NCBI RefSeq assembly: GCF_900113615.1
Contig: NZ_FOPZ01000020.1
Coordinates: forward strand, 1-63,835
Origin: Halorubrum aquaticum
Lineage (GTDB): Archaea; Halobacteriota; Halobacteria; Halobacteriales; Haloferacaceae
DNA: 63,835 bases
Direction of reading: 5' to 3'
The translations under genes were made by a program, and so were the position numbers. This document shows, one piece after another, positions 3,643 through 19,673 of the stretch (its first letter is position 1; each line of letters begins with the position of its first letter). Under the pieces are notes generated by a model that was given only the letters and a program-made list of their open reading frames with translations, had not been told where the DNA came from and searched no databases.

Positions 3643-5283
3643 TCACCGATCCACCTCCCCCATGATGGTGTCGAGACTTCCGAGGGTTGCGACGAGATCA
3701 GCGATATACTCTCCCTCTGCCATCGCCGGAAGTGCCGACAGGTTCGAGAACGATGGCCCCCGGATCTTGAACCGTGCGGGGGTCTCAGTGCCGTCTGCGC
3801 GGATGTAAATTCCGAGTTCACCCTTGGCACCCTCGACGGCCCTGTAGCACTCGCCGGACGGTTTCAACGTCCGCGGCACGTTGGACTGACAGGTTCGATC
3901 TGCTTCCGGCCAGTCGGTAAGGAGATCGACGCATTGTTCGACGATGGCTGCCGACTCTTCCATCTCTCGTAGCCGGACAAGCACGCGGGCAAAGTTATCA
4001 CAGCCGTCCTCGGTGACGACGTCCCACCTGAGACGATCATAGTAGCCGTACGGGTCGTCTCGCCGGAGGTCGTAGTCGATACCGGAGCCGCGAGCGACCG
4101 GTCCAGTGACTCCGTATTGCTTTGCCACCTCCGCCGGAAGTTCGCCGGTGTCAACACAACGCAGTTGGAAGACCTCGTTGCTCGTCAACAGGTCATGGTA
4201 CTCTTCGAGCTTCTGTGGCAGATCGTTGGTGAAAGCGCGTACGTTCTCGAAGAACTCATCGCGCGGCTCCGGAACGTCCCAGGCAACGCCGCCGACCCGG
4301 AAGTAGTTGAACATCATCCTCTGGCCAGTCAAATCCTCTAAGAGATCTTGGACGCGGTCCCGGTCTCGAAAACCATACATAAAGGTGGCATTGAACTCGC
4401 CGCTGACGTCCAGTGCGTACATCGCAGTGAACAGCAAATGCGAGAGGATGCGCGACAGTTCGGCGCTCATCGTCCGGACGACCTGCGCGTACTCCGGAAC
4501 TTCAATATCGGCCAGGTCTTCGATGACGCGGGCGTACGCCCACTCGTTGAGTAATCCCGCCCCGCCCCAATCCCATCGGTCGGGGTATGGCATGATCTGA
4601 TGACGATAGGTTCCCTGCTGACACATCTGTTCCTCACACCGGTGGATGTACCCGATATCCGGCTCCACGTCGATTACTTGTTCACCATCCAAGACTGCCT
4701 CCAGATGGAGCACGCCGTGGGTCGAGGGGTGATGTGGTCCAATGTTGAGAAACATCGTATCACCCTGCCGACTGTCCTCTTTGATGGGATTGGCATGCTC
4801 GGACAGCGGCACGATCTGGGACTGGTTCCGATCGTAGTTCTTCGAAAGCGGGTGGCCCTGCCAGGTCTCCGGCAGGAGAATCCGTCGTAGGTTCGGGTGC
4901 CCTTCGTACTTGATACCGACGAGGTCGTAGGCCTCCCGTTCGTGCCACTCAGCTGTCGGATAAACCGGCGCGGCCGATTCGGATACCGGGTCATCCTTTG
5001 TTGTCGGGACGACGAGGGACAGCTCGCACGTCCGGTCGTCGTAGCTGGTGAGGTGATACACCGTCTCGAAGCGGTCTTCGTACTCTTGGGCAGTCACACA
5101 CGAACAGTGGTCGAACCCCACTTCCGAGCGAAGTACTGAAAGAGCTCTACGGATCCGGTCGGCACGGATCACGACCGCGGGGGCGTTCTCGTGTACTTCA
5201 CGGCTGACGACGGCGTCGTCGGGGAGGGCCGTGACCGCCTCATCCACGAGTTGATCAGCGGTCGAGCGTTGTTTCCGTTGCAT
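3643..5283 (-). CDS. nuoCD: NADH dehydrogenase-like subunit CD (NuoCD fusion), orphan copy
   Basis: 546 residues combining a NuoC domain (about 1-165, with EWHEREAYDLVGIKYEGHP) and a NuoD domain from about 176 (FLNIGPHHPSTHGVLHLE). The HHPSTHG quinone-site loop and the C-terminal RFKIRGPSFSNL motif are intact. In haloarchaeal complex I, NuoCD is normally encoded within a nuo cluster; here no other nuo gene is nearby. It heads an operon with a zinc protein, methyltransferase, membrane protein and amidohydrolase. Codon use is less GC-biased than the core genes further right. It is either a second copy recruited to another task or a transferred replacement; the intact quinone-site motifs argue against a decaying pseudogene. 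Confidence 0.9.
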   Translation of the reverse strand: MQRKQRSTADQLVDEAVTALPDDAVVSREVHENAPAVVIRADRIRRALSVLRSEVGFDHCSCVTAQEYEDRFETVYHLTSYDDRTCELSLVVPTTKDDPVSESAAPVYPTAEWHEREAYDLVGIKYEGHPNLRRILLPETWQGHPLSKNYDRNQSQIVPLSEHANPIKEDSRQGDTMFLNIGPHHPSTHGVLHLEAVLDGEQVIDVEPDIGYIHRCEEQMCQQGTYRHQIMPYPDRWDWGGAGLLNEWAYARVIEDLADIEVPEYAQVVRTMSAELSRILSHLLFTAMYALDVSGEFNATFMYGFRDRDRVQDLLEDLTGQRMMFNYFRVGGVAWDVPEPRDEFFENVRAFTNDLPQKLEEYHDLLTSNEVFQLRCVDTGELPAEVAKQYGVTGPVARGSGIDYDLRRDDPYGYYDRLRWDVVTEDGCDNFARVLVRLREMEESAAIVEQCVDLLTDWPEADRTCQSNVPRTLKPSGECYRAVEGAKGELGIYIRADGTETPARFKIRGPSFSNLSALPAMAEGEYIADLVATLGSLDTIMGEVDR

Positions 5284-8032: not shown

Positions 8033-11000
8033 TCAGTCGTCGGCGGGCGCGGCCGGTTCCGTCGCGTCCGCTGCGCCCGTCGTGTCCGCCGCGTCCGCGC
8101 TCCCGGCCAGCGCCTCCGCGACCTTCTCGATCGGGTGCGGCGGGGCGCTCGCGCCCTCGCGGTCGCCGAGTTGCGAGCGACAGGACGCCCCCGGCGCCGT
8201 CACCGTCTCGCCCGGGCTCTCCTCGACCTGGTCGAAGAGGATCCGACCGATCGCCCGCGAGAGGTCGTAGTGTTCCGACTCGTAGCCGAACGACCCCGCC
8301 ATGCCGCAACACGAGGAGTCGAGGGGATCCACCTCGTAGCCGGCGCGCCGCAACACGCCCACCGCGTGGTGGTCCTTGTCCGTCGCCTTCTGGTTACAGT
8401 GGCCGTGATAGGTGAGGGACTCCTCGGGCGCGTCGAACGCCAGTCGCTCGTCGATCCGGCCGGCGTCGAGGTACTCTAGGACGCCGTAGGCCGCCGCCGA
8501 GGCCGCCCGAACCTCCTCGCCGTCGAGGAGGTCCATGTACTCGTCCTGGAACATCACCGCGTCGGAGGGCTCGACGAAGAGGACGGACCGGCCCTCCCGG
8601 ACGCGCGGCGCGAGCGCCTCGACGTTCGCCTCGGCGCGCTCGCGGGCGACGTCGAGGAAGCCCGTCGAGAAGGCCGCCCGACCCGAGGGCGCGAGGTCGT
8701 CCGGCACCTCCACGCGGACCCCGGCGGCCTCCAACACCGCGACGGCGGCCTTCCCCGCGGCCGGGTAGCTGTAGTTCGTGTAGGTGTCCGGAAAGAGCAC
8801 GACGGTGTCCTCGGCGTCCGCGGGGGAGACCGTCGACCCGCCCCGCGCCACGAACCACTCCTCGAAGCTCGTCGACCGGAACGTCGGCAGCTCGCGCTCG
8901 GGCGCGATACCGGCGACCGCGTCCATGACTCGTCGAGCGCCGGGGAGCTTCGCCGCCGCGTTCGACACCGGCGCGAGCTTGCTCCCGAGCGCCGAGAAGC
9001 GGTCGATGTCCCGGAAGATCCGCTCGCGGAGCCCCGACCCCTCCTCCTCGTGGTGTTCGTGTTTCACCTCCGCTTTGAGCTTCGCGAGGTCGACGCCGGT
9101 CGGACAGTCGCTCTTACACCCCTTGCACCCGACACAGAGGTCGAGCACCTCCTCCTGGAAGCGGTCGGAGTGGATCTCCCCCTCGTCGAGGTCGCCGCTG
9201 ATGGCGGCTCGGAGCATGTTGGCGCGTCCCCGCGTCGTCTGGATCTCCTCGCCGGAGGCCCGGTAGGTCGGACACATCACGCCCGAGTCGGTCTCCCGAC
9301 AGGTGCCACAGCCGTTACACAGCTCGACGAGGTGTGAGAAGCCGCCCTCGTCGTCGAAGTCGAGCGCCGTCCGCGGCTCGATCGACTGATACGTCGCCCC
9401 GTACCGGAGGTGCTCGCGCATGTCGGTGTCGGCGGCCGTCTCGGGATAGCCCCGGTCGCTCGCGGTGTCGCCGTCGACGTAGACGACCTTACCGGGGTTC
9501 AGCCGCCACTCGGGGTCGAACGTCGACTTGAGTTCCTGGAACGCGCTCCAGAGCGTCTCGCCGTACATCTTCGGGTTGAACTCGGTGCGCGCGAGGCCGT
9601 CGCCGTGCTCGCCCGAGAACGCGCCGTGGTGCTCCAACACGAGGTCGGTGACGTCCTCCGAGATGGAATGCATCCGCTCTATTCCCTCCTCCTCCTTCAG
9701 GGAGAGGATGGGCCGGATGTGGAGGGTGCCGCTCCCGGCGTGGGCGAAGTACGCCGCCGACGTGTCATGGGCGTCGAGCACCGCCTCGAACTCCCCGACG
9801 TACTCGGCCAGCTCCTCGGGCGGCACCGACGCGTCCTCGATGAACGGGTACGGCTTCGGGTCGCCCTCCATGCCCATCAACAGCGGAATGGCCGCCTTCC
9901 GGAGGCTCCAGAGGTCCGCCTGCTCCTCCTCCGTGTACGCCTCCAGGACGTCGAAGGCGTCGCCCGCCTCGACGAAGTGGTCGTTCGCGTCGGCGACCGC
10001 CGCCTCGAAGTCGTCGACCAGCTCGTCGTCCCACTCCAGCATCAGCGCCGCCGCGGCGCGGTCGGGGATCGGCTCGGCGTACTCCGCGAACTGCGGAGAG
10101 CCCGCCGCGAGCCCGAACACCTCGTCGTCCATCAGTTCGACCGCGCTCACCGGGAACTCCAGGGCCTCGGGGACCGCCCGCATCGCCGCCGGGAGCGAGT
10201 CGAAACAGTACAGCGCCAGCGCGGTCTCCTCGGGGCGGGTGACGAGCGACACCTCCGCCTCGACGACGACGCCGAGCGTTCCCTCCGCGCCGACGAACAG
10301 CTTCGAGAGGTTGATGACCTCCTCGCCGTCGTCGTTCTCGTAGACGACCTTGTGGAGGTTGTACCCCGAGACCGACCGCTTGAGTGTCGGGTACCGCTCC
10401 TCGATCTCCGCCTCGTTCTCCTCGACGAGCTCGCGGACCGTCTCGTACAGCGCCGCCTCCCGCTCGCCGCCCTCCTCGCCCGCGACGATCGCCTCATACT
10501 CGGGCGAGTCGAGGACGACCTCGCGGGTCTCGATGAGCGTCCCGTCCGCGAGCACGACCGTCAACTCCTCGGTGTAGGCGTCGGTGATCCCGTACCGGAC
10601 CGAGTGCGCGCCGGTGGAGTTGTTGCCGATCCCGCCGCCGACCGTCGCCCGCGCCGAGGAGGCCGGGTCGGGCGCGAACTTCAGCCCGTCCTCGGCGAGG
10701 CGGTCGTCGAGGTCGTCCTGGACGACCCCCGGCTCGACCACCGCCCGGCGTTCCTCCGGGCGGACGTCCAGTATCCCGTCCATGTGCCGCGAGAAGTCCA
10801 ACACGACACAGCCCGGTCCGACGGTCTGGCCCGCGAGCGAGGAGCCCGCCCCGCGCGGGAGGACGGGCACGCCGTGGTCGGCGGCGACCCGCATCGTCTC
10901 CCGGACGTCCGCGACCGACCGCGGCGACACGACCCCTGCGGGCCGCGCCGAATAGATGCTGCCGTCCGTCGCGTACAACACCTGCGCGTACTCGTCGAAC

Positions 11001-11200
11001 TCGACCTCGCCCTCGACGCGCTCGCGGAGGGCCGACGCGAGCGCCCGGTAGGCGGGCACGTCCGGCCTGTCGTGGCCGAGCGCGGCCGCAGACGTGTCGA
11101 GCTCGGACGCCTCGATCCCGGACACGCCGACTCCTGACGCGTCGAGCCCGGAGGGATCGGACTCCGACGCCCCGCTCCCCGTCGTGGGGTCTGTTGCCAT
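8033..11200 (-). CDS. FAD-binding/Fe-S fusion oxidoreductase, D-lactate dehydrogenase type
   Basis: 1,055 residues. After a Ser/Asp-rich N-terminus comes a PCMH-type FAD domain (LPRGAGSSLAGQTVG near 115, GGGIGNNSTGAHS near 188-200), the FAD-linked oxidase C-terminal domain, then two 4Fe-4S-type cysteine clusters (CNGCGTCRETDSGVMCPTYR and CVGCKGCKSDCPTG) and a CCG domain (CNQK at 935, SSCCGMAGSFGYE around 963-973). This is a GlcD-GlpC fusion of the kind that oxidises D-lactate or D-2-hydroxy acids and passes electrons to the quinone pool. Cytosolic, probably membrane-associated. The start at 11200 is the first ATG; the poorly conserved first 40 residues leave some doubt. Next gene downstream is an acyl-CoA thioesterase. 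Confidence 0.88.
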   Translation of the reverse strand: MATDPTTGSGASESDPSGLDASGVGVSGIEASELDTSAAALGHDRPDVPAYRALASALRERVEGEVEFDEYAQVLYATDGSIYSARPAGVVSPRSVADVRETMRVAADHGVPVLPRGAGSSLAGQTVGPGCVVLDFSRHMDGILDVRPEERRAVVEPGVVQDDLDDRLAEDGLKFAPDPASSARATVGGGIGNNSTGAHSVRYGITDAYTEELTVVLADGTLIETREVVLDSPEYEAIVAGEEGGEREAALYETVRELVEENEAEIEERYPTLKRSVSGYNLHKVVYENDDGEEVINLSKLFVGAEGTLGVVVEAEVSLVTRPEETALALYCFDSLPAAMRAVPEALEFPVSAVELMDDEVFGLAAGSPQFAEYAEPIPDRAAAALMLEWDDELVDDFEAAVADANDHFVEAGDAFDVLEAYTEEEQADLWSLRKAAIPLLMGMEGDPKPYPFIEDASVPPEELAEYVGEFEAVLDAHDTSAAYFAHAGSGTLHIRPILSLKEEEGIERMHSISEDVTDLVLEHHGAFSGEHGDGLARTEFNPKMYGETLWSAFQELKSTFDPEWRLNPGKVVYVDGDTASDRGYPETAADTDMREHLRYGATYQSIEPRTALDFDDEGGFSHLVELCNGCGTCRETDSGVMCPTYRASGEEIQTTRGRANMLRAAISGDLDEGEIHSDRFQEEVLDLCVGCKGCKSDCPTGVDLAKLKAEVKHEHHEEEGSGLRERIFRDIDRFSALGSKLAPVSNAAAKLPGARRVMDAVAGIAPERELPTFRSTSFEEWFVARGGSTVSPADAEDTVVLFPDTYTNYSYPAAGKAAVAVLEAAGVRVEVPDDLAPSGRAAFSTGFLDVARERAEANVEALAPRVREGRSVLFVEPSDAVMFQDEYMDLLDGEEVRAASAAAYGVLEYLDAGRIDERLAFDAPEESLTYHGHCNQKATDKDHHAVGVLRRAGYEVDPLDSSCCGMAGSFGYESEHYDLSRAIGRILFDQVEESPGETVTAPGASCRSQLGDREGASAPPHPIEKVAEALAGSADAADTTGAADATEPAAPADD

Positions 11201-11263: not shown

Positions 11264-12199
11264 TCAGTCGCGGTCGACCGGGATCCCGGAGTAGCCGCAG
11301 CCGTCACACGAGAGCGTCTCGCGCGCGCCGAACGCGTACGTCGACAGCGGGGCACCACAGCGCGGGCAGGGGTCGCCGCCGTCCGGGGGCGGGGCGTACT
11401 CCACGTCCGCGACGACGACCCGGACGGCGATCTCGTCCGCGGCCGAGTCATCGACCGCGCCGCCCCAGATCACGTTCGCGTCCGCCCCGACTCGCTCGCG
11501 GACCGCCGCGATCGCGTCGGTCGCGGCGGCGATGCTGGTCTCCGGGTCGACGACCACGTCGACGAGGACGGCGCTCGCGCCCGCGGGATCGACGCCCTCC
11601 GGTAGCCGTGCGAACGCCGCGTCGACCGCGGTCGCGGGCGCGGGATCGAGCGCGGCCGCGGACGAGGACGGGTCCGCGAGCGCGACCTCGGGAGCGTCGC
11701 GGTCGGCGGTCGGGCCGCTCCCCGTTTCGGCGGCTCCGGTCCCCAGCGCGGCGACGCCGGTCGAGAGGGCGGTCCGGGCGTCGGCCAGGTCCAGGTTGAC
11801 GAAGCCGGGCCGTTGAACCGCTTCGAGGAACGTCCGGATCGCCTCCTCCGCCCCGCCGTCGCCGGCGAGAAGCGTCGCGTCGACCCGCCGACGCACCGCC
11901 GCCAGCGACTCGGCGTCGACGCCCGCCGGAACGACCGCGACCGTGAACGCGTCGACTGCGTCGAGCGTGTCGAGGGCGTCCGGAGTCCGATCCGAGTCGA
12001 GAGTCGGGTCCACGACGACCAGGACGGCGGCGACGTCGTCGGGGTCGCCGCCGCCCCCGGCGACGAGTTCCGCGGTCGTCGCGACGCGAGCGCCGGGGAA
12101 CGCCCCGTCCGAGGGGGTGGCATCGCCGTCGATCCCGCAGACGACCACGGAGCCGTCGAGCGCATCGGCCCGCCGCCTGAGGTCCTCGCTCGAGACCAT
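11264..12199 (-). CDS. Degenerate FtsZ-fold protein with C-terminal zinc ribbon
   Basis: 311 residues. Residues 130-155 (RPGFVNLDLADARTAL then GVAALGTG) and 240-268 (ADANVIWGGAVDDS then VRVVVADVEY) clearly resemble the C-terminal domain of FtsZ/CetZ. Upstream, TVAVVPAGVDAESL (86-99) aligns in spirit with the FtsZ region after the GTPase loop, but the tubulin signature GGGTGTG is missing, replaced by VVDPTLDSDRTP. The C-terminus has a zinc ribbon (CPRC at 278-281, CDGC at 298-301). So it probably cannot bind or hydrolyse GTP. It is divergent from a type IV pilus ATPase gene, with less than 100 bases between the starts. Function unknown; a scaffold or partner of FtsZ-like proteins is possible. 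Confidence 0.7.
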   Translation of the reverse strand: MVSSEDLRRRADALDGSVVVCGIDGDATPSDGAFPGARVATTAELVAGGGGDPDDVAAVLVVVDPTLDSDRTPDALDTLDAVDAFTVAVVPAGVDAESLAAVRRRVDATLLAGDGGAEEAIRTFLEAVQRPGFVNLDLADARTALSTGVAALGTGAAETGSGPTADRDAPEVALADPSSSAAALDPAPATAVDAAFARLPEGVDPAGASAVLVDVVVDPETSIAAATDAIAAVRERVGADANVIWGGAVDDSAADEIAVRVVVADVEYAPPPDGGDPCPRCGAPLSTYAFGARETLSCDGCGYSGIPVDRD

Positions 12200-12293: not shown

Positions 12294-14789
12294 ATGTCAG
12301 GAAAAGAGAATCGTTATATCGGATCGCCGGACACCGGTCGATCAGACGAGCGCAGAGACGTGACGAGTCCCACCCTGCGGATCGGCGGCGGCTCCGAGGA
12401 CCCCGACGCCTCGGTTCCGGCACCGGTCTCGCCCGACGACCCCGAAGCCTGGTACGCCCCGGACGTCCGCGCGCAGTACGAGTCCGCGCCCGGCGTCGTC
12501 GCGACGATCCGCGAACGCGACGGCGGCCGGTTCGGCTATGACGTCCGCGAACCGCCCCTCTCGACGGCCGACGAGCGCGCGCTCGAACGGGTCAGAGAGC
12601 ACTTCTCGGCGGTTCGTGGCCGCCGCCCGCTCACCCGCGCCGGCGCGGTCGAGCGCGCGGAGGCGGGGTTCGAGCCGAAGTACGAGCGGGTGCTCGACCG
12701 CCTGCTCTCGACGACCGCGGCCGCCCGCCGCCGGATCGGTCACCACGCGCTGTGTGAACTCCGCCTGTTCGGCGACCTCACGCCCGTCGCGCTCGACGGC
12801 CGGATCGAGGTCGCGGACGTCGGCGACGACCGCGAGCTCGTCGTCCACACCGACGCGTTCGCGCCGCTCGAGACGGGCGTGGACGCCGACGCCGAGTACG
12901 TCGAGCGCGTCGCCGGCGAGCGGCTCGCGCGGTACGCGGTCGAGTTCGCCGGGTTCGCCGTCGACGTGGTGATCTACCGGGAGCGGCTGCTCGGCTCGGA
13001 CGCCTTCGAGACGAAGTACGCCGCGCTCGAGCCCGACCTCCTCCCCGGCGACGAGGCGCTGATCCGCGACTGCGAGCGCCGGATCTGGGAGACGCCCGTC
13101 GACCGACTGATCGACGACCGGACCGCGTTCGTCGCCGAGCACGCCCGTCGATACCTCTCGCGGCGGCTCGCCGGCGGCTCCTCTCCACGGGGGTGGGTCG
13201 CGACCGTCCGCGAGCGCGTGCGGAACGCGCTCGTCGATCGGGACCTCCTCGCTCCGAGCGTCGATCCGACGTACGCCGACGACCGTCTCGAGGACCTCGT
13301 GTACTACGTGCTCAGGGACTTCGTCGGCGAGGGCGTCCTCACCGTTCCGATCCGCGACCCGCACCTGGAGGACGTCGAGGCCAACCGCGTCGGCGAGCGC
13401 GTGAAGGTCGTTCCCCGCCCCGCGGTGTTGTCGAGCGCCGCCGCCGGGGCTACCGACGATCCGGCGGCCGACGCCGTCGAGGGGGACTCGCCGAGCGGCC
13501 GGGCCGGCATCGACCCGCTCGCGGGCGGCGGCCGGATCCCGACGAACCTCGCCTTTACCGACGAGTCGCGGTTCGTCGACGTCGTGACGCGGCTCTCGGC
13601 CCGCGACGGCGTGGAGCTGAACGCCTCGACCCCGTCCGCGAAGGTCAACCTCGACGTCGACGGCGTCTCGGAGACGGTCCGGTGTGCGGTCGCGCTGCCG
13701 GTCATCTCCGCGGACGGCCCGCACGTCTCGATCCGGAAACAGGCGCCCGACCCGCTCACCCCGGTCGATCTGATCGCCCGGAACGCGCTCTCGACGGAGC
13801 TCGTCACCCTGTTGTGGCTGTTGTACGAACACCGCGGCGTCGTCCTCTTCGCGGGGCCGACGGGGGCGGGCAAGACGACGTTGATGAACGCCCACATGCC
13901 CTTCATCCCCTTCGACGACCGACCGATCTCCATCGACGAGGGGTCCCGCGAGGTGCGGCTCCCCCACGAGACCGGCGTGGCGCTGACGACCCGCGACCAC
14001 GAGAACGACTACAAGGCGGTGAGCATGGCGACGCTGATGACGGAGGCCAACTACCTGAACCCCGACGTCGAGGTGATAGCCGAGATCAACACGCCCGCCA
14101 GCTTCGAGACGTTCGCCGAGACGGTGAACACGGGCCACGGCGTCGTCGGCACCACCCACGCGGCGGACGTGGAGACGCTCGTCAACCGCGCCATCGAGCG
14201 CGGGCTCCCGCCGTACCTGCTCCGGGAGATCGACCTCGTGGTCTTCCCGCGGCAGGTCGGCGGGGATCGGTACGTCGCGCAGGCGGTCGAGCCGCTCTCG
14301 CCCGCCGAGTACGACGCGCTCGACCCGGCCGCGACGGAGAGCCGGACGGGCGACCCGAAACACGGCGGGGCCGGCGTCGTCGAGCGCGACGACACGACCG
14401 TCCACTACAACACGGTCGCGTGGCGTGACCCCGCGGGGGGCTTCCGGATGGACGGTGCGCCGACGGCGGACGCCGCGACGTCGTACGCCGACGGCCGCCG
14501 GCGGCTCCACGCCCTCGCGCGGCTCGCCGAGCGGACCGACCGCGACCTCGAGGCGGTCGAGTCCGAGTTCGCCGCCAAACACCGCTACGTGGAGTACCTC
14601 GTCCGCGACGGCCTCGACGACTTCGACGAGCTGTTCGAGTTCCTCGCCGACCTCCGGGCGGACGAGGCCGCGACCGTCGAGCGCGCCGCGCGCTCGCTGC
14701 GGCGCGAAACGGACGGCGACGGACGTTCCGGAGACGAGCGTACCGGAGACGAACGATCCGGAAACGGACCGTCCGGGGGCGTGCCGTGA
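12294..14789 (+). CDS. Type IV pilus/secretion ATPase (GspE/PilB/TadA family)
   Basis: 831 residues. Walker A is GPTGAGKTTLMNA near residue 521-533, Walker B region VEVIAEINTP near 587, and the His box GTTHAADVETLVNRA near 615. The N-terminal half carries the archaeal-specific domain seen in haloarchaeal PilB proteins (WYAPDVRAQYESAPGVVATI). It powers pilus assembly at the cytoplasmic membrane. The next gene, for the membrane platform, overlaps by 4 bases (GTGA), so the two are co-translated. The extreme C-terminus is a variable Gly/Asp/Ser tail. No pilin gene is visible nearby, so the pilins must lie elsewhere or be undetected. Start ATG at 12294 lies 94 bases from the divergent FtsZ-like gene. 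Confidence 0.9.
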   Translation: MSGKENRYIGSPDTGRSDERRDVTSPTLRIGGGSEDPDASVPAPVSPDDPEAWYAPDVRAQYESAPGVVATIRERDGGRFGYDVREPPLSTADERALERVREHFSAVRGRRPLTRAGAVERAEAGFEPKYERVLDRLLSTTAAARRRIGHHALCELRLFGDLTPVALDGRIEVADVGDDRELVVHTDAFAPLETGVDADAEYVERVAGERLARYAVEFAGFAVDVVIYRERLLGSDAFETKYAALEPDLLPGDEALIRDCERRIWETPVDRLIDDRTAFVAEHARRYLSRRLAGGSSPRGWVATVRERVRNALVDRDLLAPSVDPTYADDRLEDLVYYVLRDFVGEGVLTVPIRDPHLEDVEANRVGERVKVVPRPAVLSSAAAGATDDPAADAVEGDSPSGRAGIDPLAGGGRIPTNLAFTDESRFVDVVTRLSARDGVELNASTPSAKVNLDVDGVSETVRCAVALPVISADGPHVSIRKQAPDPLTPVDLIARNALSTELVTLLWLLYEHRGVVLFAGPTGAGKTTLMNAHMPFIPFDDRPISIDEGSREVRLPHETGVALTTRDHENDYKAVSMATLMTEANYLNPDVEVIAEINTPASFETFAETVNTGHGVVGTTHAADVETLVNRAIERGLPPYLLREIDLVVFPRQVGGDRYVAQAVEPLSPAEYDALDPAATESRTGDPKHGGAGVVERDDTTVHYNTVAWRDPAGGFRMDGAPTADAATSYADGRRRLHALARLAERTDRDLEAVESEFAAKHRYVEYLVRDGLDDFDELFEFLADLRADEAATVERAARSLRRETDGDGRSGDERTGDERSGNGPSGGVP

Positions 14790-17900: not shown

Positions 17901-18020
17901 CCGTTCGCGGTCCCCCGCTAGCCGCTCACGACGCCCCGCCCAACGGCTCGTAGTCCTCCGATTATCCCTTCTGGGATCTCGCCGCGATCGTTTATGTACG
18001 GCCGCGGCCGGAGCCGATCC

Positions 18021-19673
18021 ATGACCGCTTCCGGCGAGTACGGACGAGGGGACTTCGGGCAGGGCGGACTGAACGACCGGTTGGACGTCGAGGAACTGGT
18101 CGAGGAGATCGGCCTCGACGACGAGGAGATCGCGTGGCGAAAGGAGTTCGTCGGCTTCGACGAGGAGGACGTGCGTCGCCTCGAGCGGTACGAGGAGGCG
18201 TTCGCGGCCAACGCCGACCGGGTCGCCGCGGACTTCTACGACAACCTCACCGACCACCAACAGACCGTCGACGTCATCGGTCGCTCCGAGAAGGGGATCG
18301 ACCAGCTCAAACGGACCCAGTCGGCGTACCTCGTGACGCTGGCCGGCGGCGAGTACGGCTCGGACTACTTCACGGACCGCGCCCGGATCGGTAAGATCCA
18401 CGACCTGCTGGAGATGCCGATGAAACACTACCTCGGCCAGTACGGGGTCTACTACGACCTGATCCTGCCCCTCGTCGGCGACCGGCTCGTCGAGTCGATC
18501 ACGGAACGGCTGACCGGCGCGGCCACGGACGGCGGGCCGGCGGTCGCCGAGGGCGGACCGGGCGACTCGACCTCGATCCCGACGGGCGACGCCGGGACCG
18601 ACCGCGACGCCGTGGGGGAGGACGACCTCGAGAACGCCGTTCGGGCGGAGGTCGACGACGCCATCGAGGACGTCCTCTCCGTCCTGCGGATCGTCAACCT
18701 CGACATGCAGGTCGTCACGGACACGTACATCCACTCGTACAGCCGGGAGATCGAGGCGGAGGCACGACGCAACGAGCGGCTGATGACGGAGGTCCGCGAG
18801 GGGCTTCGTGACCCCGTTCGCGACCTCCGGACGTCCGCCGCCGACGTCGCCGAGAGCGCGGCGACCATCCGCGACGACTCCGGGCGGCAGTCCGATCGGA
18901 TCCGCGAGATCGCCGCCGAGGTGGGGAACCTCTCCGCGACCGTCGAGGAGGTCGCCTCGACGGCCGACCAGGTCGAGGGCGCGAGCGACCGCGCGGAGAC
19001 CCTCGCGGAGAACGGTCGCGACGCCGCGGACGACGCCGCGGAGGTCATGGACGACATCGGGGCGGCGGTCGACGGGGCCGCGGCCGACGTGGCGACGCTC
19101 GAGGAGCGCGTCGGCGAGATCGACGAGTTCGTCGACGCGATAGACGGGATCGCGGAGCAGACGAACCTGCTCGCGCTCAACGCCTCCATCGAGGCCGCGC
19201 GCGCCGGCGAGGCCGGGGCAGGGTTCGGCGTCGTCGCCGACGAGATCAAATCGCTCGCCGAGGAGTCCAAGCGTCACGCCGGCGACATCGAGGAGATGGT
19301 CTCGGGGATCCGAACGGACACGGAGGAGACCGTCGAGAGCCTGACGGAGGCGAACGAGCGGGTCTCCCGCGGGGTCGAGCGCGTCGAGGACGCGATGCGG
19401 AACCTCACCGACATCGCCGAGGCGGTCTCGGAGGCCGCGGCGGGGATACGCGAGGTGTCCGACGTCACCGACGACCAGGCGGCGGCCGCGGAGGAGATCG
19501 CGGCCACGGTCGACGAGGTCGCCGAGCGGTCGGCTCGCGTCACCGACGAGATCGGTGACCTGGCGGCCGCCAACGAGCGACAGGCGGAGATGGTCGAGGA
19601 GGTCGAGTCCGCCGTGACTCGGCTCTCGGCCGAACGGCCCGCGGCGGACGCCGACCCGACGGACCCGGTCTGA
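18021..19673 (+). CDS. hemAT: Globin-coupled aerotaxis transducer HemAT
   Basis: 550 residues. Residues 1-180 form a globin-coupled sensor (EEIAWRKEFVGFDEEDVRRL at the start; RARIGKIHDLLEMPMKHYLGQYG carries the likely proximal His). A linker rich in Gly/Asp follows, then a methyl-accepting signalling domain with the hairpin tip IAEQTNLLALNASIEAARAGE. No membrane segment is present, as in soluble HemAT. It senses oxygen through haem and signals to CheA/CheW. ATG 18021 is preferred over an ATG 27 bases upstream because a TATA-like tttatg lies about 27-33 bases before it. Confidence 0.92.
   Translation: MTASGEYGRGDFGQGGLNDRLDVEELVEEIGLDDEEIAWRKEFVGFDEEDVRRLERYEEAFAANADRVAADFYDNLTDHQQTVDVIGRSEKGIDQLKRTQSAYLVTLAGGEYGSDYFTDRARIGKIHDLLEMPMKHYLGQYGVYYDLILPLVGDRLVESITERLTGAATDGGPAVAEGGPGDSTSIPTGDAGTDRDAVGEDDLENAVRAEVDDAIEDVLSVLRIVNLDMQVVTDTYIHSYSREIEAEARRNERLMTEVREGLRDPVRDLRTSAADVAESAATIRDDSGRQSDRIREIAAEVGNLSATVEEVASTADQVEGASDRAETLAENGRDAADDAAEVMDDIGAAVDGAAADVATLEERVGEIDEFVDAIDGIAEQTNLLALNASIEAARAGEAGAGFGVVADEIKSLAEESKRHAGDIEEMVSGIRTDTEETVESLTEANERVSRGVERVEDAMRNLTDIAEAVSEAAAGIREVSDVTDDQAAAAEEIAATVDEVAERSARVTDEIGDLAAANERQAEMVEEVESAVTRLSAERPAADADPTDPV

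Follow-up and report, generated by a model that had tools for sequence, protein, structure and literature searches.

An FtsZ-derived pseudo-GTPase of haloarchaea that keeps the T7 loop and may act on FtsZ filaments

The window analyzed here is a stretch of 63,835 nucleotides of Halorubrum aquaticum DNA (contig NZ_FOPZ01000020.1). On its minus strand, positions 11264-12199 hold a frame that stays open for 311 codons, a real gene that encodes a 311-aa FtsZ-like protein. A first-pass annotation, made from the letters alone, had placed the ORF at this position and on this strand, and the peptides it named (RPGFVNLDLADA, ANVIWGGAVDD, and VRVVVADVEY) are all present in the protein. The gene is located between a type IV pilus ATPase gene (pilB, 12294-14789), which is divergent from it as had been described, and a FAD/Fe-S oxidoreductase gene (8033-11200) on the same strand, 63 bp downstream; the same arrangement is found in its closest relatives. 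Elsewhere in the window, a protoglobin domain is fused to an MCP signalling domain (17994-19673, plus strand), forming a globin-coupled sensory transducer, and a single ORF (3643-5283, minus strand) contains the 30-kDa and 49-kDa subunits of complex I in a NuoCD-like fusion.

Sequence profiles and structural modelling indicate that the 311-aa protein is a true FtsZ descendant. It scores 37.7 bits against Pfam FtsZ_C (curated cut-off 27; E 2.5e-9), a cut-off also passed by 7 of 8 orthologues checked, and it matches the NCBIfam ftsZ model TIGR00065 in part (residues 119-267; 2.1e-12, far under the equivalog cut-off), while matches to the sequences of solved FtsZ chains reach 5.8e-8. Structure prediction had been suggested in the first-pass annotation as a check, and the AlphaFold2 model, built with the 29-sequence family alignment (pLDDT 86.4, pTM 0.83), has only FtsZ among the best 50 matches listed by Foldseek and by VIA-align. 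The best VIA-align match is the FtsZ of M. jannaschii (1w5a; Z 20.7, with 241 residues aligned at 3.5 A), and it covers residues 1-273, indicating that the entire body of the protein has the two-domain FtsZ fold. Thus, the earlier statement that the C-terminal half matches FtsZ caught a real similarity but drew it too narrowly. A distant member (L085, 34% identical) shows the same topology and order of elements (pLDDT 86.9), and less eroded orthologues retain an FtsZ-like first strand and loop, for example SVLVLGCGDAGEAAA in L077. The profiles, solved-chain matches, and structure match together rule out a low-complexity or chance similarity. A fragment consisting of the C-terminal domain only is also ruled out, as the N-terminal ~110 residues are a shrunken FtsZ nucleotide domain.

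The nucleotide-binding (Rossmann) domain occupies residues 1-113 (11861-12199, minus strand, as for all parts of the gene) and is shortened, as judged from the alignment against haloarchaeal FtsZ1 and FtsZ2 and from the VIA alignment of the model, which begins at residue 1. It is followed by a predicted helix that aligns with the core helix H7 of FtsZ (residues 116-129, 11813-11854), by the T7 loop PGFVNLDLAD (residues 131-140, 11780-11809), and by the FtsZ C-terminal domain (residues 141-268, 11396-11779), which is recognized by both the profile and the model. Within the latter, residues 160-187 (11639-11722) form a low-complexity segment, part of which is an insertion unique to the window copy, with low pLDDT at 163-166. 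To locate what the family has lost, we aligned it with FtsZ1 and FtsZ2 from the same and related genomes, using the positions fixed in haloarchaeal FtsZ1 and FtsZ2 as a reference and weighting mean retention over seven clades. Loops T1, T2, T3, T4, and T6 are lost or eroded, and the 34 fixed positions of the T1-T6 loops have a mean retention of 0.16. The tubulin signature GGGTGTG in T4 is absent from 29 of 29 members, the T6 asparagine is retained at 0.07, and the S2-S3 region and T4-H4 are cut down relative to FtsZ1 and FtsZ2. The family therefore lacks the GGGTGTG and T1-T6 GTP contacts of canonical FtsZ, in agreement with the earlier remark that the GTPase signature is lost, and, given the missing GTP site, GTP-dependent polymerization of the protein is expected to be absent.

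The T7 loop has a different fate. The alignment of the 29 sequences, which represent three families of the class, has just 17 invariant columns, among them N135, D137, and D140 of T7, W245-G246 of the S9 strand A-N-V-I-W-G (residues 241-246, 11462-11479), and the zinc ribbon. The canonical N-x-D-x-x-D of FtsZ T7 is thus present in 29/29 members, and the same residues are also invariant in two other alignments (A3 and A4). Mean retention is 0.72 for T7 positions (1.00 for each of N, D, and D) and 0.96 for S9, compared with 0.27 for the remaining positions; because the T7 and S9 groups were picked with the alignment known, the random-draw figure of 0.0014 is descriptive. In helix H10, which lies on the same C-terminal face, the acidic residues are gone (the positions of FtsZ1 E316, E318, and G319 are retained at 0.00-0.02), so this face is kept only in part, and the H10 loss is the chief argument from sequence against complete preservation of the interface. 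In pairwise comparisons within two Halorubrum clades, dN/dS is 0.16-0.17 for H7-T7-H8, 0.15-0.16 for the zinc ribbon, and 0.49-0.59 for the N domain, with a fairly relaxed whole-gene value of 0.41-0.48. The strongest constraint within the gene thus lies in the zinc ribbon and in the T7 region. FtsZ structures with T7 substitutions or D210N (3wgk, 3wgl, and 7oja) keep the FtsZ fold and the T7 of CetZ differs, indicating that the T7 residues are dispensable for folding, and they have no evident use in cis in a protein without a GTP pocket.

The zinc ribbon (residues 275-304, 11288-11377) has the pattern CPRC-x16-CxxCGY, with a two-strand hairpin at 284-298 in the model and a Pfam zinc-finger match just above its cut-off. 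Its four cysteines (C278, C281, C298, and C301) and the pattern CPRC-x16-CxxCG are invariant in the 29 sequences, which bears out the earlier proposal that a zinc ribbon has been added. It occupies the place of the FtsZ C-terminal tail, so that the protein ends in a zinc ribbon and not in a tail peptide like that of the host's own FtsZ2 (...NNGLDVIR). A role in localization or recruitment is the natural guess. The nearest relative of the ribbon in the same genome (49% over 35 residues) belongs to a separate protein with a 129-codon frame (L019, C13:357-461), which is small and combines its zinc ribbon with an acidic repeat tail. A stretch similar to this second ribbon is found in many Halorubrum genomes, often in a frame of ~60 codons.

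Intact members of the family are patchily distributed, occurring in 29 of the 391 Halobacteria genomes sampled: 14 in Halorubrum, 6 in genus g42, 5 in g34, 2 in g3, and 1 each in g66 and g43, with identities to the window's protein as low as 29%. Both FtsZ1 and FtsZ2 are present in 8/8 member-carrying hosts checked. A search of 393 genomes of the phylum with a strict cut-off (E 1e-45) revealed no members beyond the host order. We also searched a plasmid collection by tblastn and a collection of viral contigs by profile scan; neither contained a member, and a virus or plasmid origin is rejected as far as these collections reach. In a tree with FtsZ1 and FtsZ2 but without CetZ, a branch with 100/98 support separates the family from the other sequences. 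Including CetZ leaves the g34 members weakly placed, a weak hint of an independent origin that is rejected by the single branch recovered without CetZ; the deep branching order is unsure because the branches are long. In one genome (G014; L096, 775-1629), the FtsZ-like gene is a C-terminal remnant with two stop codons, alongside which pilB and the oxidoreductase gene persist, a lineage-specific loss. This pseudogene, the eroded N domain, and the relaxed overall dN/dS would fit a functionless, decaying FtsZ paralogue. However, the frame, start, T7, and zinc ribbon are conserved across three families, dN/dS falls to 0.15-0.17 in the constrained regions, and the family is monophyletic with respect to FtsZ1 and FtsZ2, so we disfavour decay and consider it very improbable. 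Taken together, these are members of a genuine haloarchaeal family of FtsZ-derived pseudo-GTPases.

We examined whether the neighbourhood points to a partner. Since a divergent pilB adjoins the gene at 12294 in the window and in close relatives, the protein could be a localization or assembly factor for the pilus machinery encoded by pilB-pilC, as the first-pass annotation had entertained. This adjacency is confined to one Halorubrum subclade (L007-L010, L026, and L122-L125, plus G014 with its pseudogene). pilB is present in 46 of 52 Halorubrum genomes but the FtsZ-like gene in only about 15, and of 30 Halorubrum pilB loci read, 25 lack the gene within 1.5 kb; the co-occurrence with pilB-pilC that had been proposed as a check is therefore not seen. 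Members from other clades sit at other loci, next to fumarase and succinyl-CoA synthetase, a MATE-like transporter, or Nuo genes, as read from the translations. The conserved linkage that would mark a type IV pilus accessory protein is missing, the pilus adjacency is incidental, and a pilus function is largely refuted. Across the loci of the several clades compared, no neighbour gene is conserved, as would be expected if the target lies in trans. A homologue of the oxidoreductase encoded at 8033-11200 in the window also lies ~7 kb from the FtsZ-like gene in two loci from another family of the class (L087 and L089, near position 1-1226), reflecting either chance or old linkage.

What might the kept T7 face be for? 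When FtsZ subunits assemble into a filament, each inserts its T7 loop into the GTP pocket of its neighbour (PMC8456036), and hydrolysis is triggered there. The plus end of the filament corresponds to the C-terminal face and the minus end to the GTP face (PMC11938149). In Haloferax volcanii, FtsZ1 serves as a scaffold and FtsZ2 as its constricting partner (PMC7617429). We propose, with a probability of roughly 0.4, that the pseudo-GTPase acts in trans on the real FtsZ of the cell, inserting its intact T7 face at the minus end, where FtsZ1 or FtsZ2 presents the GTP face, to cap, seed, or trigger hydrolysis. Its own GTP pocket being lost, no subunit could add on that side, while on the opposite, C-terminal face T7 and the neighbouring S9 strand are kept; a protein of this kind would be expected to dock where an FtsZ subunit leaves its GTP face exposed. 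The docked protein would complete the active site of that subunit and terminate the filament, acting either as a minus-end cap that seeds or stabilizes filaments or by firing hydrolysis at the end, and the zinc ribbon, standing in for the FtsZ tail, might localize the protein or bring in another factor. Binders of the N-terminal, minus-end face are predicted to nucleate or stabilize filaments, or to sequester subunits (PMC11938149). FtsZ1 is the likelier partner, as suggested by the wording of T7 and by its closer position to the family in the tree. The first-pass annotation had imagined capping or scaffolding of FtsZ or CetZ filaments. The FtsZ part of this idea is plausible given the invariant T7, and it is sharper now because the catalytic loop belongs to the small invariant part of the protein, whereas CetZ is a poor candidate because its T7 segment differs. 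We infer the binding to FtsZ, its polarity, its effect on filaments, and the role of the zinc ribbon; binding itself is plausible. The H10 acidic loss, the patchy gene, the G014 pseudogene, and the relaxed overall dN/dS all speak against this proposal, and the T7 motif could have been retained to make a different contact or to let its Asn bind a metal.

The same T7 and fold evidence, and the same docking, would also serve a sequestering inhibitor that occupies the GTP face of unassembled FtsZ subunits and blocks their entry into filaments, a brake on division resembling SulA in effect but acting on the opposite face. A patchy, dispensable gene suits a conditional inhibitor, and sequestration by N-terminal-face binders that change subunit conformation is permitted by one analysis, which nevertheless argues that GTP-face binding favours nucleation or stabilization (PMC11938149). 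We found no regulatory or stress setting for the gene, and we regard this reading as unlikely. Alternatively, the FtsZ scaffold may have been exapted as a protein-protein or zinc-dependent adaptor that makes no contact with FtsZ, the T7 Asn and Asp residues serving another ligand such as a metal ion. The lost H10 acidic residues and eroded N domain are consistent with this, as is a zinc ribbon that is invariant and constrained as strongly as T7; in FtsZ, too, the T7 Asn coordinates a metal ion (PMC10333351). Yet an adaptor has no obvious need to keep each of the three catalytic T7 residues across 29 sequences whose identity to the window's protein falls to 29%, and a partner gene conserved across clades is missing; we find it doubtful, though less so than sequestration. 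The specific form of the docking proposal, a one-sided FtsZ that works as an endogenous mimic of the C-terminal face, capping or seeding FtsZ1/FtsZ2 minus ends and completing the last GTPase site, is tentative and possible rather than probable. If true, it would provide an archaeal, FtsZ-derived counterpart of the gamma-tubulin role and a native archaeal Z-ring regulator. A dedicated protein that derives from FtsZ and retains chiefly its catalytic contact face would offer a native handle of a rare kind. It would also put the two-sided model of the active site to a clean natural test, since evolution would have parted T7 from the GTP pocket on which it acts.

The family resembles FtsZ1 and FtsZ2 in its fold over residues 1-273, in T7 (N-x-D-x-[AT]-D), in S9 (A-x-x-IWG), and in the N-terminal lead-in DEELxxxxxxL, and differs in its lost or eroded T1-T6 and in the zinc ribbon that replaces the variable linker and tail peptide. 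CetZ, of the same superfamily and present in the same genomes, retains GGGTGSG with a T7 of V-x-D-[ST]-S-E, a combination that the family does not have. Surveys of archaeal tubulin-superfamily proteins mention divergent members (PMC9856176, PMC9871819, and PMC2875224), and in the passages searched no description was found of an FtsZ relative that keeps T7, lacks the GTP site, and carries a zinc ribbon. Makarova and Koonin 2010 (PMC2875224) describe FtsZl1 and FtsZl2 as divergent accessory relatives beside normal FtsZ, as is the case for this family; there, FtsZl2 retains all loops, and FtsZl1 keeps the GTP domain without a recognizable T6-H7 or C-terminal domain, the reverse of the arrangement found here. 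The host genome also contains a 1062-codon open frame (L006, C9:36988-37236) that matches the Tubulin domain weakly and carries a GGGSGSG motif; it resembles the large FtsZ-like proteins described by those authors. The thaumarchaeal FtsZ Nmar_1262 is likewise an archaeal homologue that has lost the GTP motif, but its T7 NVDFAD is also lost and a zinc ribbon is not reported (PMC3684127), so the selective retention of T7 in the family stands out. MciZ, SulA, MinC, and MipZ regulate filaments by binding a polymerization face, namely the C-terminal, plus-end face, and are not FtsZ homologues (PMC11938149). The family would bind the opposite face, via FtsZ's own surface. Gamma-tubulin is a superfamily member specialized in ending or seeding the filaments of its relatives, and it still binds nucleotide and acts as part of a large complex; the comparison extends only to how the two would work.
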